Below, one piece after another: positions 53,833 through 61,780 of a DNA stretch of 64,000 bases; position 1 is the first letter of the stretch, and the number at the start of each line of letters is the position of its first letter. A program made the position numbers and the translations under genes. Location: the NCBI GenBank assembly GCA_009924735.1, contig RFQZ01000001.1, forward strand, positions 62,001-126,000, in the 5' to 3' direction. Below the pieces are notes generated by a model. It had not been told where the DNA came from, did no database searches, and worked only from the letters and a program-made list of their open reading frames with translations. This DNA is from Flavobacteriia bacterium (GTDB taxonomy: Bacteria > Bacteroidota > Bacteroidia > Flavobacteriales_D > Crocinitomicaceae).

Positions 53833-54591
53833 GTGGAAGAGATTATCTATGAGGAGAAGATTAGCGTTAACAGAGCTTGTAAAATTGTTTGTATGACAAG
53901 AAGTATGTTTTATTACTCGAGCCGAAAGAATGATGAAGTGGTTATCGAGAAACTCAACGAGCTTTCGGAACGTTATCCAACTCGGGGTTTTGAGACGTAT
54001 TATGGAAAAATACGCTTAGCCGGACTTACTTGGAATAGGAAACGAGTGCTTCGAATTTATCGAAATATGAACTTAAAAATGCGTAGGAAACGTAAAAGAA
54101 GAATACCAACTAGAATAAAAGAAGCGCTGATTGTACCAAATCATTTAAATGAAACATGGTCGATTGATTTTATGAGTGATGCATTGGAAAACGGAAGAAA
54201 GTTCAGGATTTTAAACGTAATGGATGATTTTAATAGGGAGGCGTTGATTAATGAGGCGTATTATTCTATTCCAGCTGAAAGACTGGTGAACTCGTTGAAA
54301 CAACTCATTCAATATCGTAATAAACCCAAAAGAATCCGAACTGATAATGGCCCTGAGTTCTTATCCAAAAGGTTCGTTGAGTTCTGCACTGAACAACAAA
54401 TTGAGCTTTGTTATATTCAGCCTGGTAAGCCCGCTCAAAATGCCTATGTTGAACGGTTCAATAGAACGTTTAGAGAAGATGTGCTTGATGCCTATTTATT
54501 TAAATCCATACAAGAAGTAAATGCATTAGCCTTCGGTCAGAGTCCTTGGTTATTCACAGGTCAATCATTAGTTGATGAAATGAATTATTAA
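53833..54591 (+). CDS. IS3-family transposase OrfB (C-terminus degraded)
   Basis: Integrase-type DDE transposase. The track start is GTG; in practice translation probably comes by -1 frameshift from OrfA. DDE residues are visible in ETWSIDFMSDAL (Asp), IRTDNGPEFL (Asp) and NAYVERFNRTFRED (Glu). After EVNALAF the expected W-MxDYNxxRPHxSL tail is replaced by GQSPWLFTGQSLVDEMNY, while the DNA still contains CACAGG...CAATCATTA, so small deletions have probably decayed the 3' end. Activity is therefore doubtful. Confidence 0.85.
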   Translation: MEEIIYEEKISVNRACKIVCMTRSMFYYSSRKNDEVVIEKLNELSERYPTRGFETYYGKIRLAGLTWNRKRVLRIYRNMNLKMRRKRKRRIPTRIKEALIVPNHLNETWSIDFMSDALENGRKFRILNVMDDFNREALINEAYYSIPAERLVNSLKQLIQYRNKPKRIRTDNGPEFLSKRFVEFCTEQQIELCYIQPGKPAQNAYVERFNRTFREDVLDAYLFKSIQEVNALAFGQSPWLFTGQSLVDEMNY

Positions 54592-54633: not shown

Positions 54634-54806
54634 CAATCTCCAGCTTCTTCATTTTTGATTTCAGAAATCGGTAAAATGTTTAAAATTTCAAAGCTGCCAC
54701 CGAAGTAAACTTGATTTTTCGAATTGTCGTTTGGCGAAAGTTTTTTGATGTAAATTTTTGTACAACCGTTATCAATGAACAGCGACTTTAGATTTTGTAG
54801 GTTCAT
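54634..54806 (-). pseudogene. Type II restriction endonuclease, N-terminal fragment (cut by the IS)
   Basis: The minus-strand frame (ORF 54588-54806) encodes about 57 native residues, [40 protein letters not shown], then runs into the IS end (VAFPIFKQRINIIT). The KKLSPNDNSKNQ segment reminds me of MvaI/BcnI-family enzymes, which cut CCWGG or CCSGG; that recollection is tentative. It starts inside the 3' end of the Dcm-like methyltransferase gene (35-base overlap), the classic methylase-then-endonuclease order. The catalytic part is missing, so the enzyme is inactive. Confidence 0.6.
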
Positions 54807-56004
54807 TGATTTTCAAAATTTCTTTTATAATATTCTTTCCAACTGCTTGAATTAATGGTGTTACAACAGAATTTCCAAATTGTTTATAGGCTTGATTGTC
54901 AGAAACTGGAATGATAAAACTATCAGAAAATCCTTGAAGTCTTGCACATTCTCTTGGTGTCAATCTTCTTGGGTTTAATCCGTCTTGCGGTATTAAAATT
55001 TCTGCTCCGTCTTTGTAATATCTTGCACTCATTGTTCTTGAAATACCATCTAAATTGGTTAATCCAAAACCAAAACCGTTACCTTTGGCTTTGTGCTTTT
55101 TCGCATATTCTTGCAAGTAATTCCAAAGTTTGTCCGACAAGGTGTATTTTGGGTCAACTTCTTCTTCTAAAATATCTCGAATGGCAAATTTTGTATCTCC
55201 CATTTTCGGAAATTCAAAAGTTTCTTCGCCTTTAAAAACTTTGTTGTTAAAACCAACAATGATTATTCTTTCTCGGTGTTGTGGTACAAAATGTTGTCCG
55301 TCCAAAACCTTGAAATGAATTGAATAACCTAATTCTTTTAAAGTTTCTTTTATGACTGTAAAAGTTTTTCCTTTATCGTGAGAAACAAGATTTTTTACAT
55401 TTTCCAACATAAATGCCTTTGGCATTTTATGTTTTATAATTCTTGCAACGTCAAAAAATAATGTTCCTTGAGTTTCGTCTAAAAAGCCGTGGGCTCTGCC
55501 CAAGGCGTTTTTCTTTGAAACTCCTGCAATTGAAAACGGCTGACAAGGAAAACCTCCTAATAAAATGTCGTGGTCTGGAATTTCGTTTTCGTTTATTTTA
55601 GTAATGTCTCCAAAAGGTACTTCTCCGAAATTGGCATCATAAGTTTTTTTTGAATAAGTGTCCCACTCGCTTGTAAAAACGCATTTACCACCAAGATTTT
55701 GAAAAGCCAATCTTATTCCGCCAATACCTGCAAACAAGTCAATAAATTTAAACTTTGGTGTCGTTGGTGGTGGAAATGGAATGTCCCAATTTATTGGTAA
55801 ATAATATTGAAAGTCTGGTTCCTCGACAATGTTCAATTTATCGTGTAAATCTGTCAAATAAGTTGTTGCAGTTGGTTTGTAGTATTGAGAAACTCCATTT
55901 TTGTGGTTCTGAAAAAAGTGCGTCAAATGAGCCAAGTCGTTATTTTCCGTCTTGGTAATCTCTAATTTGAGTTTAATTTTTATGTCTGAATACTTTTTGC
56001 TCAT
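54772..56004 (-). CDS. Dcm-like DNA (cytosine-5) methyltransferase
   Basis: Modification methylase of 410 residues. After an 80-residue N-terminal extension come motif I ([20 protein letters not shown]), motif IV with the catalytic Cys154 ([20 protein letters not shown]), motif VI (MLENVKNL), motif VIII ([11 protein letters not shown]) and motif X ([11 protein letters not shown]). [20 protein letters not shown] matches E. coli Dcm closely, so CCWGG is the likely target, by inference. Its restriction partner is truncated downstream, leaving an orphan methylase. Confidence 0.93.
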
Positions 56005-56424: not shown

Positions 56425-58701
56425 CTATTTTATTTTTGAGTTCATTAGTTTTTCTATACTTATTGCAATAGGTCTTTTGTTTTCGCCAAGCCCATCAAGC
56501 TTTGTCAAATCAATTTTTAGGTTGTTAAATTCCTTTTCATATTCTTTTTCCAACTGATAAACCAAATACATTTCTTGACTTGGTGTAGTCTTGTATTTTA
56601 AGTCTTTTTTTAATTCGGATTTTGTGTAAACTTTTGCCCCATTACTTTTAAGTTTAAAAAACAAAGTTGATTCGGTTTGGTCTTTTGAATATAAAAGTAA
56701 ATATTGAGCACCAATCTCATTGGTACTTAATTCATACTTGTCACCATAACGAACATTATAAAAACCCTCGCTTTTAATCCAACTTAAATGAATATTGTCT
56801 TTATAATAACCGACTAGAACAAAAGTTTCGCTTGGAATTAATTTTTTGTTGCTTATATATTCTGGTAATGGTTCGTTTAAAGTATCACTATCAAGTTTTC
56901 TTTTTTGATGAATATCATAAATTTTAACAGCGGTGTATTCTCTTTGAGAAGCTCTGTCAATAAAGTTTGCAACTACTTTTTTTATGAAATTTTTTAAGTG
57001 TTCCTTATCCTTATTGTCTTTGTTGGGTTTAATTACAAAAGCCCCTAGGCCGGGTATTAATTCATGAAAACCTCTAAAAGGCTCATCCTTGCCCTCGCCA
57101 GGATATAAAACATAAGCACCACCAGTTCTTCTAATAGCATCTTTATAAGCATGCATTTTTAGTAAATCCTGATTTTTAAATGTGCCTTTCTTTACTTCTT
57201 CTGCCTCTTCCTTTATTAGTTCAATATTTTCTTCCTCTGTCAACTCCTCGTCTTTAGATTTAGAAATTAGCTCATAGAAATTTTTGACTTTGTATTTTGC
57301 ATCAAAGTGAATGTGTGTAATCAATTCTGTTCTTTCTGCATCTTTTGCTTCTGTTATTTCTTCAGGCCAAATAGATAAAGTGTAATCAGGACGTAGTGTG
57401 GTTGTGTAACTGCCTGAATTCGGAAAAGTTTTGCCCCCACCAAATGAACGATTATAAGAAAATTGAATATTTAAGTTTCTTGAAGGAGATTTGTATACTC
57501 CTTTCATTGCTATTGCAGTACCTTGTTTTAAGTTTAGCGTCAATTGATCTTTATCGTATTGAATCAATTCTGCAATACTTTTTGGTTCAATTTCAAACAC
57601 TTCTTTTAATAAATCTAACAAAGTAAAGAACAACCAATATTCATATAACGTAGCAATATCTTTTTTGCCAGCATCATAAACATTATCTCCACCATGCCAA
57701 ATCAATTTAGAGGCCAGGTCAAACTTAAGCCATGCACTTAAAACCTCTCTATACCCGCTTTTCCTTTGAAGTACTGGGCTATTTAGTTTTAGAGAAGTAG
57801 GTCGTGATATTTGCTTGAAAAATGATTGATTTAATAAAGTAGATATTTTTGTTGCTAGCAATCCAGATTCAAATTTTGCAGTTGAATACTTTTCAAATTT
57901 CAATTCGCAATTTTCACAGAAAAAAAGAAATTCTTCTAATGCATGTTTAATAAAACGATTTTCGGCTGTGTCTATTGATTCTGTCTTCCTTGTACTATCT
58001 ATTTTAGTTGGAATCGAGGTTAATCCGTAAGTCTTATTCAAAAAATGGTCATTACTTATTTCCATTCGGTTACTTTTGGCAACCAATTGTTTTATGTTTT
58101 TTTGATTAAATCTTCGTATTCTTCGAATATCTTTTACCTCATGTTCCTCTTCCCATTTGGTTGTAGGATTGGACACAATTTTTTGAATAGCTTCTTCAAA
58201 TTCTAGTGAATCGATTAATGATTTTACAAAAGAAAAGCGTTGATATAGAGTTTCTGGGTTCTTATTGAAATCGGTTTCAAAATGTTGATTAATCGGAGAA
58301 TCAATCTGCATGATTAAATCAGTGCATCTTTCGGTGATGCTCTCAAGCATGAAGCGGTAGTCAGACCGATATTCGCTTTTAACAGATCGTACCTCAATCG
58401 GTAATAAAATTGGTGAGTTATTTATTTCAAGCGAATGTGTACCAACATATATATTAGGATTAATACTGCCTTTATGTTTACCAAACTTAGAATGAGATAC
58501 AATTGCATTTTTTTTACTCCCCTCTTTGAATTTAATAGTTACATCCGAAAACTGATATTCATAAGAGTAACCTTCCAAAAGTTGATATTTTGCTTCACCA
58601 AACTGTAAAACGTCTTCATCAGAAATTTCAAAAAGAGTGTCATTATCACCTTCAATTTCTAATATCAATCCTTGTTTAATATGTGAAAGCTCTATTTTCA
58701 T
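56425..58701 (-). CDS. DUF2357/PD-(D/E)XK nuclease subunit of a McrBC-like restriction system
   Basis: A 758-residue protein. The N-terminal 300 residues carry DUF2357-type features (RRIRRFNQKNIKQLVAKSNR, then SPVLQRKSGYREVLSAWLKF). A PD-(D/E)XK nuclease core follows: Glu in TLYEYWLFFTLLDLL, Asp439 in RPDYTLSIW, Asp467-x-Lys469 in IHFDAKYKVK, and MHAYKDAIRRTGGAYVLYP. About 200 further C-terminal residues are unassigned. It begins 2 bases after the McrB-like ATPase, so it is the cleavage subunit by position, as McrC is to McrB. Confidence 0.83.
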   Translation of the reverse strand: MKIELSHIKQGLILEIEGDNDTLFEISDEDVLQFGEAKYQLLEGYSYEYQFSDVTIKFKEGSKKNAIVSHSKFGKHKGSINPNIYVGTHSLEINNSPILLPIEVRSVKSEYRSDYRFMLESITERCTDLIMQIDSPINQHFETDFNKNPETLYQRFSFVKSLIDSLEFEEAIQKIVSNPTTKWEEEHEVKDIRRIRRFNQKNIKQLVAKSNRMEISNDHFLNKTYGLTSIPTKIDSTRKTESIDTAENRFIKHALEEFLFFCENCELKFEKYSTAKFESGLLATKISTLLNQSFFKQISRPTSLKLNSPVLQRKSGYREVLSAWLKFDLASKLIWHGGDNVYDAGKKDIATLYEYWLFFTLLDLLKEVFEIEPKSIAELIQYDKDQLTLNLKQGTAIAMKGVYKSPSRNLNIQFSYNRSFGGGKTFPNSGSYTTTLRPDYTLSIWPEEITEAKDAERTELITHIHFDAKYKVKNFYELISKSKDEELTEEENIELIKEEAEEVKKGTFKNQDLLKMHAYKDAIRRTGGAYVLYPGEGKDEPFRGFHELIPGLGAFVIKPNKDNKDKEHLKNFIKKVVANFIDRASQREYTAVKIYDIHQKRKLDSDTLNEPLPEYISNKKLIPSETFVLVGYYKDNIHLSWIKSEGFYNVRYGDKYELSTNEIGAQYLLLYSKDQTESTLFFKLKSNGAKVYTKSELKKDLKYKTTPSQEMYLVYQLEKEYEKEFNNLKIDLTKLDGLGENKRPIAISIEKLMNSKIK

Positions 58702-58703
58702 TT

Positions 58704-60233
58704 TTATGCTTCAGCGTAACTTGCAAAACCGTTTTCAACGGCATTTTTATACATTCTGCAAATTTTTTCGAATGATATTTTGTATTTGATATTTGAGTCT
58801 GCTTTAAGTTCAATCTCGGTTAAGCTATTACTCAGGAATTTATCCAAGTAATCTTCTTTAATTTTTGAACTATCTGTCAAACAAAAACTACCTAGAATAG
58901 GAAGTACTTTTGTAAGCTTGTTTCTTGAACCGTGCAATTTGGGTAGTAATTTCTGCATTATGGCAATATCAAGTAGGTTGTCGCCTGCTTCGCCAAGTTC
59001 TTTTAGCATATACATTAACCTTCCAATTTCGCTTGCTGTTCTATAACCAAATTCAGCCCCTGATTTTTTCAACTCAGAAAAGAATAGTTTTAAGTCTTCT
59101 TCCGATGGTTTTAAATTCTTATCTGTTTCTTGTAATGCCATTGCCATAAAATCGTCCGACATATTTGCTCCTTGAGCAGTTAGCAACTCCATTCTTAGCG
59201 GTACATCACTTTCAATAAAATCTGCTAAGTCCTTTTCAGTTAATCGAAATTCAATTGTGTTTGCTCTGTCTAAAACCTTTGGACTAAACATATAAGTAGT
59301 CTCATCAATATTTACAGTGCCTATAATGAATAAATTTTTAGGAAGTTTTAATTTTTGAGGAATAGTGATTAAATTATTTATTGGTTCTGGTAGTATTTTA
59401 TGAAGTGGAATTGTATCTCCAGATTCCATGGTACTCAAAAAATCAGCAAAATAACGTTCAACATGACTTAAATTCATCTCATCTAATATCAAGAAGTAGG
59501 GTTTTGTGGGTTCTTCTGAATTCTCAATATTTTGCTTTGCTCTAATCATCAAATCCAATACGCCATTTTCAGGGGTTATATATTCTTGTTTATTTAAAGC
59601 ATTTGGATAACCTAAGAGAGGTTCACGGTTGGTCCAATCGGCACCCACAGGAACAATTAAATATTCTGATTCATCTCTTGTAATCCATTGAGCAAATGCT
59701 TGTGCCAATTTTGTTTTACCAGAACCTGAAAGTCCACTGCAAATTACAAATGGTTTGGTGCACAAAGAAGCAATGAAACGTTGAATGATTTGAGGAGAAA
59801 AGATCAGCCCTGCATCTAAACAAAGCTCATAAAAATTATCAAATTTGAAATTTATAGATGCCTTTACAGGATTTGGTTTCTGCATTTTCAAAATAAATTC
59901 TCTAACCTTTGAAGTATCGCCAATAAGATCACCTTCACTATTGTACATTCCCCAAACACCTTTAGATTGCTCTAGAAACAGTGTTTGACCTGCATAATTT
60001 TTCGTTATTTTTTTCCAACCCTCAATGTATTCTTGTAAAGGTTTATTTTCATCTGCATCATCTAAATATGCAATAATATACTCACACTTTTTCCAAGCGG
60101 TATTAGATCTCGTGGCAGTACCTGATTGTAGTAAGGATGACCGAGAAGTGTCTCTATGATAGCCAGAGATTGTACTGGCATCCATAAATTTTGAGAATGA
60201 GCTAAATGCTTTTAAAATATCTTCTTTATCCAT
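58704..60233 (-). CDS. McrB-like AAA+ ATPase/GTPase of a restriction system
   Basis: Motor subunit of 509 residues. The N-terminal 130 residues are an unassigned domain (possible target-recognition part). The AAA+ core has Walker A at 167-174 (CSGLSGSGKTKLAQAFAQWI), Walker B at 247-252 (YFLILDEMNLSHVERYFADF), sensor region IIGTVNIDETTYMFSPKVLD RANTIEF in McrB style, and a C-terminal helical lid. It overlaps the methyltransferase gene by 22 bases and abuts the nuclease gene. Nucleotide preference (GTP as in McrB, or ATP) cannot be read. Confidence 0.87.
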   Translation of the reverse strand: MDKEDILKAFSSFSKFMDASTISGYHRDTSRSSLLQSGTATRSNTAWKKCEYIIAYLDDADENKPLQEYIEGWKKITKNYAGQTLFLEQSKGVWGMYNSEGDLIGDTSKVREFILKMQKPNPVKASINFKFDNFYELCLDAGLIFSPQIIQRFIASLCTKPFVICSGLSGSGKTKLAQAFAQWITRDESEYLIVPVGADWTNREPLLGYPNALNKQEYITPENGVLDLMIRAKQNIENSEEPTKPYFLILDEMNLSHVERYFADFLSTMESGDTIPLHKILPEPINNLITIPQKLKLPKNLFIIGTVNIDETTYMFSPKVLDRANTIEFRLTEKDLADFIESDVPLRMELLTAQGANMSDDFMAMALQETDKNLKPSEEDLKLFFSELKKSGAEFGYRTASEIGRLMYMLKELGEAGDNLLDIAIMQKLLPKLHGSRNKLTKVLPILGSFCLTDSSKIKEDYLDKFLSNSLTEIELKADSNIKYKISFEKICRMYKNAVENGFASYAEA

Positions 60234-61213
60234 GTTGTGAAGTTTTCTTTATTTAACGGAAATGGTGAAGAATATCCTATTGGAAATCCCATAAGATATT
60301 CAGCATGCAATGCATTTGGCTTACCAAAAACCTTTACATATTTTGCACAAGATGGATGCTTTTGCATTGAGTTATAATGATAATTACCCATTGTAGTAGG
60401 GGTGTGTATGAATATTGGATCATTAGGATATTGTTTAGATATCCATGTCTTTGATTTTTCAAAAACAGTATTGACTTCTATTTCAGAAACATTATTCATA
60501 GTATAATTTTGATCCATTTGTCTATTGACCAAAATACGAAAAGCAACAGCAGCAGCAATTGGAGCCTGTGCATTACCGACACCTCTTTTTTGTGGTGCTA
60601 GCACTGGCACAGGTGCAGGATATTTAATTTTATTCGGATTGTCTTTCCAAAAGTCAGAACGAAATTTTGGTAGATTTTTTGTGTTTAGGGATAATTTTAA
60701 CAACGCCTCTTTTGAATTTATAGCTAGTAGCCAAAATCTTGGTCGTTTATGGTCAGCCCCCAAATCCATACATGCTAGTTTACAAGATGAAACTTCATAA
60801 CCTATAGCTTCTAAGTCATTTTTTGCTATCAAAATGGCCTCTGATGTTACATTTTCTGCAAAAACTACAGGTGCATTTGATTCTTTTACAAATTCTAACA
60901 TTTCAGGCCAAAGATTCTTTTCTGAAATATTATTACCACGAGCTGCATAACTGAATGCCTGGCAAGGAAAACCTCCACAAAGCACGTCAAATGAACCTTT
61001 AAAGTCCTTGGGATCTATTTTTTTTATATCATCAAAAATTTCAAAGTTTTCTAACCAGCCGTCTATTTGCCTTTGTCTAAGAACAGTTTGACAATATTTA
61101 TCTATTTCCACACTGGCAATACATTCATGTCCAAGAATTTTACCACCTAAAATGCCTCCACCTATTCCTGCAAAAAGATGCAATTCTCTTATTTTCAATT
61201 CTTTATTTTTCAT
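60212..61213 (-). CDS. DNA (cytosine-5) methyltransferase with unusual motif order
   Basis: Modification subunit of 333 residues, started at 61213 (MKNKELKIRELHLFAGIGGG). Motif I (LHLFAGIGGGILGGK), motif IV with catalytic Cys (CGGFPCQAFSYAARGNN), motif VI (VFAENVTSEAI) and VIII (DHKRPRFWLLAI) come in order. GVGNAQAPIAAAVAFRIL (motif X-like) then appears at about 211-228, before a recognition-domain-like stretch and LHAEYLMGFPIGYSS (motif IX-like) at about 303-317. In standard enzymes IX precedes X. It overlaps the controller by 11 bases and the AAA+ gene by 22. Confidence 0.88.
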   Translation of the reverse strand: MKNKELKIRELHLFAGIGGGILGGKILGHECIASVEIDKYCQTVLRQRQIDGWLENFEIFDDIKKIDPKDFKGSFDVLCGGFPCQAFSYAARGNNISEKNLWPEMLEFVKESNAPVVFAENVTSEAILIAKNDLEAIGYEVSSCKLACMDLGADHKRPRFWLLAINSKEALLKLSLNTKNLPKFRSDFWKDNPNKIKYPAPVPVLAPQKRGVGNAQAPIAAAVAFRILVNRQMDQNYTMNNVSEIEVNTVFEKSKTWISKQYPNDPIFIHTPTTMGNYHYNSMQKHPSCAKYVKVFGKPNALHAEYLMGFPIGYSSPFPLNKENFTTWIKKIF

Positions 61214-61406
61214 TTTTTTTGCTTGATTCAATTAATTCAACTACATCAACATCTAGAATTTTAGCTATGTCATTTAGTACTTCAAGTCTTGGTTGTTGTC
61301 GGTTTTGCACGTAACTATTCACCATGTTGTAGCTTTTGCCTAATTGCTCAGCTAACCACGTTTGTTTAATTCCTTTTCTGTCTAGCACTTCCTTAATTCT
61401 GTTCAT
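61203..61406 (-). CDS. Small HTH controller (C-protein-like) of the restriction module
   Basis: An Xre-family protein of 67 residues. I start it at 61406 (MNRIKEVLDRKGIKQTWLAE), a typical N-terminus; the track's upstream codons are not needed. The HTH reads KQTWLAEQLGKSYNMVNSYV QNRQQPRLEVLNDIAKILDV, followed by an acidic tail. It is first in the run and overlaps the methyltransferase gene, as C genes of R-M systems do. A palindrome sits over its promoter, so autoregulation is likely. Confidence 0.86.
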   Translation of the reverse strand: MNRIKEVLDRKGIKQTWLAEQLGKSYNMVNSYVQNRQQPRLEVLNDIAKILDVDVVELIESSKKNEK

Positions 61407-61427: not shown

Positions 61428-61435
61428 CAAAAGTA
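61428..61435 (-). promoter_or_regulatory. -7 element of the controller promoter
   Basis: TACTTTTG on the minus strand, 22 bases before the controller ATG. The position about 19-20 bases upstream, where the -33 box should be, lies inside the palindrome at 61450-61474. Confidence 0.62.
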
Positions 61436-61449
61436 ATCATTATTGGTAA

Positions 61450-61474
61450 ATTTATCTCATTAAACGAGATAAAT
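61450..61474. promoter_or_regulatory. Palindromic operator of the controller
   Basis: ATTTATCTC and GAGATAAAT are perfect 9-base arms with a 7-base spacer. It overlaps the -33 region of the controller promoter, so a bound HTH dimer could repress or, at another occupancy, activate the restriction genes. Confidence 0.65.
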
Positions 61475-61497
61475 AAAGTGTGTATGGTTTGGCAAAA

Positions 61498-61562
61498 AGT
61501 GGCTCTTTTGGTTTTGCCGAAGGGTTGGCTTCGTGTGTTGGGGCAAAACCAAATGTGCCACT
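61498..61562. repeat. Hairpin with 21-base arms
   Basis: AGTGGC-TCT-TTTGGTTTTGCC pairs with GGCAAAACCAAA-TGT-GCCACT: 18 of 21 positions pair, with a 3-base internal mismatch. The 23-base loop contains GAAG...CTTC. Confidence 0.65.
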
Positions 61563-61754
61563 TGTGCGGTTGGCTAAAATTGTTTTTAAAAAAGTGCGGT
61601 GGGGAAAAAATAAAAACATCGGGTCGGATTGAGTGTCGGCTTACTAGCTGTCCAGTTGCAATATGGTCTGTATGTTTTTGGTCACCTGTCAAAATGGTTT
61701 GTCTTTGTTTTAATGTTTAAATTTTTAAATTTTGGTCGGTCAGTCGTCTTGTGA

Positions 61755-61780
61755 ACGGTCGTCCTACCATTGGCTATAAC
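61755..61780. repeat. Partial copy of the 56.1 kb repeat
   Basis: ACGGTCGTC followed 8 bases later by GGCTATAAC. At 56103-56130 the same ACGGTCGTC is followed 11 bases later by GGCATAAC. Confidence 0.5.

Follow-up and report, generated by a model that had tools for sequence, protein, structure and literature searches.

Transcriptional control of restriction is known mainly from the C proteins of Type II systems, from RptR of Type I systems in Gammaproteobacteria and from HsdC of Mollicutes. The C proteins, among them C.AhdI, C.BclI, C.Csp231I and C.PvuII, are small helix-turn-helix (HTH) proteins of the Cro/C1 fold that head restriction genes and have an operator in their own promoter; in relatives of C.Csp231I, covariation between recognition helix and operator has also been described (PMC3115060). 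RptR is encoded by the first gene of its restriction operon and represses its own promoter through a site conserved in relatives; it is linked to Type I systems and binds repeated 6-bp TAGCTA sites as an unusual single-groove dimer (PMC12255303). In Mollicutes, the HTH regulator HsdC serves both Type I and Type II systems; a motif is conserved upstream, and HsdC binds mainly direct repeats that overlap the -10 box (PMC5282649). The LlaJI cassette, with two C5 methyltransferases, a McrB-like R1 and a McrC-like R2, is described as two methyltransferase genes followed by two restriction endonuclease genes, with no HTH gene (PMC1459862).

We analysed a 64,000-nucleotide stretch of a Flavobacteriia bacterium contig (RFQZ01000001.1, positions 62,001 to 126,000; hereafter the window), in which an HTH gene heads a set of restriction genes on the minus strand. 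This gene (61203-61406, with its ATG at 61404-61406) encodes a Cro/C1 (XRE) protein of 67 amino acids with HTH_26/HTH_3 domains, the proposed autoregulator. Behind it lie the gene for the C5 cytosine DNA methyltransferase M1 (60212-61213), whose ATG lies inside the 3' end of the HTH gene, that for a McrB/LlaJI R1-like AAA ATPase (58704-60233), overlapping the end of M1, and that for a McrC/LlaJI R2-like subunit (56425-58701) with DUF2357 and a PD-(D/E)XK nuclease domain (PDDEXK_7). All four genes overlap or abut, and the overlaps suggest that they are co-transcribed. By gene content the operon is predicted to be a LlaJI-like restriction-modification system, although the relation to McrB is weak by Pfam and NCBIfam and comes from gene order and from a strong match only to PADLOC PDC-M26A. 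In contrast to LlaJI, the HTH gene comes first and the gene for the second C5 methyltransferase, M2 (54772-56004, minus strand), follows the restriction genes, 420 nt beyond the operon. M2 has no operator copy of its own and could be expressed independently, outside the HTH operon. Directly beyond M2 lies an IS3-type transposase-like ORF together with an unknown ORF of 72 amino acids (53833-54591), which suggests a mobile island.

The first-pass annotation of this DNA had described a perfect N7 palindrome with 9-base arms at the -33 position, ahead of an HTH gene leading the restriction operon, and this observation held. The palindrome, ATTTATCTC-ATTAAAC-GAGATAAAT, is exact at 61450-61474 and never arose when the window was shuffled 100 times. 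It is single-copy in the 2.5-Mb genome, where allowing up to three mismatches yields one further match, with three mismatches. Comparison with relatives narrows the conserved element to a 19-bp core, the dyad TATCTC-N7-GAGATA at 61453-61471, which occurs once in its own genome with up to one mismatch allowed; the three outer bases of each arm (ATT/AAT) are not conserved among relatives, and in the closest relative the arm is interrupted at these bases. Between the core and the HTH start codon on the minus strand, 17 nt from the core, lies TACTTTTG (61435-61428), which is of the TAnnTTTG type and a good Bacteroidota -7 box by the consensus of PMC7366714. The core thus lies 18-36 nt ahead of this box, geometrically covering the -33 region. 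The window promoter lacks a TTTG at -33, and Flavobacterium promoters in general have no recognisable -33 motif (PMC7366714). A sigma-70 scan is of little use here because Bacteroidota promoters differ, and a terminator scan was likewise uninformative. The intergenic DNA beyond the operator (61476-61780) contains a 22-nt inverted repeat (61497-61518/61542-61563) and has a second genomic copy of 76% identity (G000:C49:3535-3748); similar words are found ahead of the HTH gene in some relatives.

The first-pass annotation had proposed looking for the palindrome in related upstream regions, and there it proved to be conserved. Genomes and viral contigs were searched with the HTH protein alone as query, so that neither the site nor the restriction genes entered the selection. 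After removal of near-duplicates, 131 upstream regions remained (the window and 130 others), and each was scored against the core as it stands in the window, with no other sequence contributing to the pattern. Perfect cores were found in 6 of the 130 other regions, cores with at most one mismatch in 24 and cores with at most two in 40, against 0, 0.04 and 0.54, respectively, expected from shuffles. Real flanking genome sequence (514 kb) contained 17 two-mismatch sites and none better, or about 0.003 per 110 bp. A search blind to the pattern, which tried 4096 arm words with 13 gaps on regions from the group with a matching recognition helix, ranked TATCTC with a gap of 7 first among palindromes, with a score of 89 where shuffles reached no more than 43. 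Across 110 family genomes, only 2 of the 26 loci with an exact core match adjoin an HTH gene, so a core match alone is not diagnostic.

The site also keeps its place in the promoter. Its centre lies mostly 53-57 nt ahead of the ATG, and a TAnnTTTG-like -7 box follows 14-18 nt downstream in 31 of the 40 sites (3.3 expected). In a second class (11/40, 3.1 expected) the -7 box is 5-9 nt from the site, approximately one helical turn closer. A search for a second operator found none, extra half-sites numbering 3 against 2.6 expected.

Operator and protein vary together. Among the upstream regions of HTH proteins with the helix S[YF]NMVN[SGA]Y[VA]QN, 28 of 43 had the site, compared with 12 of the remaining 87 (p = 7e-9); these counts are inflated because related sequences share ancestry and are not independent events. 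For the other 15 of these 43 proteins, no site with two mismatches or fewer was present. Dyad base 7 changes together with HTH residues 37 and 40, being G with Q/R and A with R/S. A small group in which K, S, T or G replaces the Q of YVQN prefers TATCAT-n3-ATGATA, and in three loci operators such as TATATC-N7-GATATA occur with HTH proteins having K or S at this position. Such variant operators with altered helices hint at a readable operator code. For the SYVVxTNYCNN helix group, a de novo palindrome search gave nothing above shuffles. Five genomes each hold five to seven HTH relatives; at the loci examined in one of them (G836), the recognition helices differ, as expected if cross-talk is avoided.

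Conserved ahead of HTH homologues, fixed in its promoter position and covarying with the recognition helix, the dyad is a putative HTH operator. These lines of evidence agree on the HTH protein as binder despite the shared ancestry of the sequences, and the palindrome is very probably the operator of the protein encoded beside it, controlling four tightly packed genes. We consider it probable that an HTH dimer on the 19-bp dyad autorepresses the whole operon and that this arrangement forms a portable front end, a reading grounded in sequence comparison, namely operator conservation, fixed promoter spacing, recognition-helix covariation and gene order. From these we infer dimer binding, repression and co-transcription. 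Sitting on 61453-61471, the dimer would cover the promoter, of which TACTTTTG is the -7 box, on its -33 side and would block RNA polymerase. Bound in this way, the HTH protein would repress its own gene together with the co-transcribed M1, McrB-like and McrC-like genes, and the restriction operon as a whole would be kept at a low set level.

The predicted structure of the HTH protein is of the Cro/C1 type, and its matches include repressors (SinR, CylR2, DdrO) and the C proteins C.AhdI and C.BclI. Its closest solved relatives by both sequence and fold are 3omt and 3bs3, Bacteroidota HTH structures of unpublished function whose recognition helices diverge from that of the window protein and to which no operator or target has been assigned. 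With the C proteins, the locus further shares the predicted co-transcription with restriction genes. In contrast to them, it has one 19-bp dyad in place of two GACT-type operators, a methyltransferase gene inside the controlled operon, and relatives that are not confined to Type II systems. C proteins were absent from the PDB matches to E=0.01 in a single-sequence search and to E=1 in a profile search; the window contains no exact C-box (GACTNNNAGTC) and its promoter no copy with one mismatch. The missing C-box, the single operator and the missing sequence match rule out identity as a classical C protein. RptR likewise differs, since the operator here is one 19-bp dyad, the fold is Cro/C1 and the family serves all restriction types; neither TAGCTA repeats in the window promoter nor the RptR fold in the HTH protein was encountered. 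Direct repeats of the HsdC type, such as (GTGTTAN5)2, were not encountered either, the window having instead an inverted repeat at the -33 region. The HTH protein would act like a restriction controller, with RptR and HsdC as functional counterparts that use other sites.

Activation by the HTH protein is possible, although we regard it as unlikely that an activator, or an activator-repressor resembling a C protein, binds as a dimer at about -38, recruits RNA polymerase and produces a delayed rise of the operon. The missing TTTG at -33 and the fixed promoter geometry are compatible with such a protein, the usual site centre of approximately -38 would suit a class II activator, and C proteins have the same fold (TMq 0.77 for C.AhdI) and likewise precede restriction genes. 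However, the -33 motif is absent from Flavobacterium promoters anyway (PMC7366714), and C proteins that act as activator-repressors use two operators (PMC3115060), whereas a single one is found here. In 11 of the 40 sites the operator is shifted about one turn towards the -7 box, where activation is unlikely; placed inside the promoter spacer, it fits a repressor better. Repression is therefore preferred, given that the nearer position is tolerated, that no second operator exists and that repressors are among the closest fold relatives. Related to this is the proposal of the first-pass annotation that the HTH protein regulates all four genes in the manner of a C protein, delaying restriction until methylation is complete. 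Its regulatory part is supported by conservation, promoter position, helix covariation and tight gene packing; its classical C-protein mechanism is not supported. That mechanism would accord with an HTH gene at the head of a restriction operon and with an M2 that might be expressed independently past the 420-nt gap, but there is one operator, no GACT/AGTC C-box and no C protein among the PDB profile matches to E=1. Moreover, M1 precedes the nuclease genes in the same operon, so that the site alone cannot let modification precede restriction, and a role in delaying restriction is accordingly doubtful.

It is less credible still that another protein binds the palindrome, be it a regulator of the host or a methyltransferase in the way that M1 acts on the LlaJI promoter, and that the HTH gene only travels along. 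LlaJI itself is reported, in a title cited in PMC1459862, to be under epigenetic regulation; yet the site accompanies HTH relatives ahead of several methyltransferase families, varies with the HTH recognition helix and is single-copy in its own genome. As for an RNA hairpin or terminator, the perfect arms could fold, but a palindrome placed ahead of the -7 box would not be part of the operon transcript, and the terminator scan found no terminator. A chance repeat in AT-rich DNA is ruled out by conservation. Both of these last readings are therefore highly improbable. Autorepression by the HTH protein remains the reading that we favour.

Comparison of the downstream genes indicates that operator, promoter and HTH gene together are probably a portable front end of unrelated restriction-modification systems in Bacteroidota. 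Of 62 loci examined to approximately 9 kb, 51 have a following gene whose start is no more than 30 nt from the HTH stop codon, with an overlap in 29, and 45 operons contain a methyltransferase motif. By Pfam, the first genes behind the HTH gene (n = 54, with overlapping counts) include N6_Mtase (17), N6_N4_Mtase (9), Eco57I (9), ResIII (9), C5 methylase (4) and HSDR_N (3), and the second gene encodes a Type I specificity subunit in 13 cases. Based on this content, Type I, Type III, Eco57I-like and C5 systems have a common front end. The closest relative of the window (L098) matches it at 89% DNA identity in the promoter and 88% in the HTH gene, but identity drops to 68% within the following gene, and its M2-type methyltransferase, McrB-like and McrC-like proteins share only 49%, 30% and 22% identity, respectively, with those of the window. 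Conversely, no related HTH gene precedes the five closest relatives of M1, and the HTH gene is absent from 12 close relatives of the window's McrC. The association of the palindrome thus belongs to the HTH cassette and not to the enzymes, and the closely similar promoter and HTH gene of the closest relative, set against its divergent enzymes, argue for a portable module. Tenacibaculum phages PTm1 and PTm5 (loci L274, NC_049340.1 192669-197857, and L037) encode an HTH relative of 75% identity with its own dyad, ATACTCATTTGATGAGTAT; in PTm1 the gene immediately behind the HTH gene carries the annotation restriction endonuclease subunit M.

We found no description of this Bacteroidota HTH family in the literature searched, and a 2009 survey of C-protein sites (PMC2632904) lies outside it; the novelty of the family is provisional. 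A single HTH family, with an operator code that can be defined, appears ahead of most kinds of restriction system in a whole phylum. More tentatively, these front ends may perhaps act as interchangeable controller cassettes throughout Bacteroidota, ahead of Type I, Type III, Eco57I-like and C5/LlaJI-like systems and in Tenacibaculum phage, with different helix-operator pairs sorting resident and incoming systems into compatible and mutually repressing groups. A shared operator predicts cross-talk or exclusion between restriction systems, and the operator is directly testable. Such cross-talk or exclusion would have consequences for gene transfer in Bacteroidota, for their resistance to phages and for their transformation.
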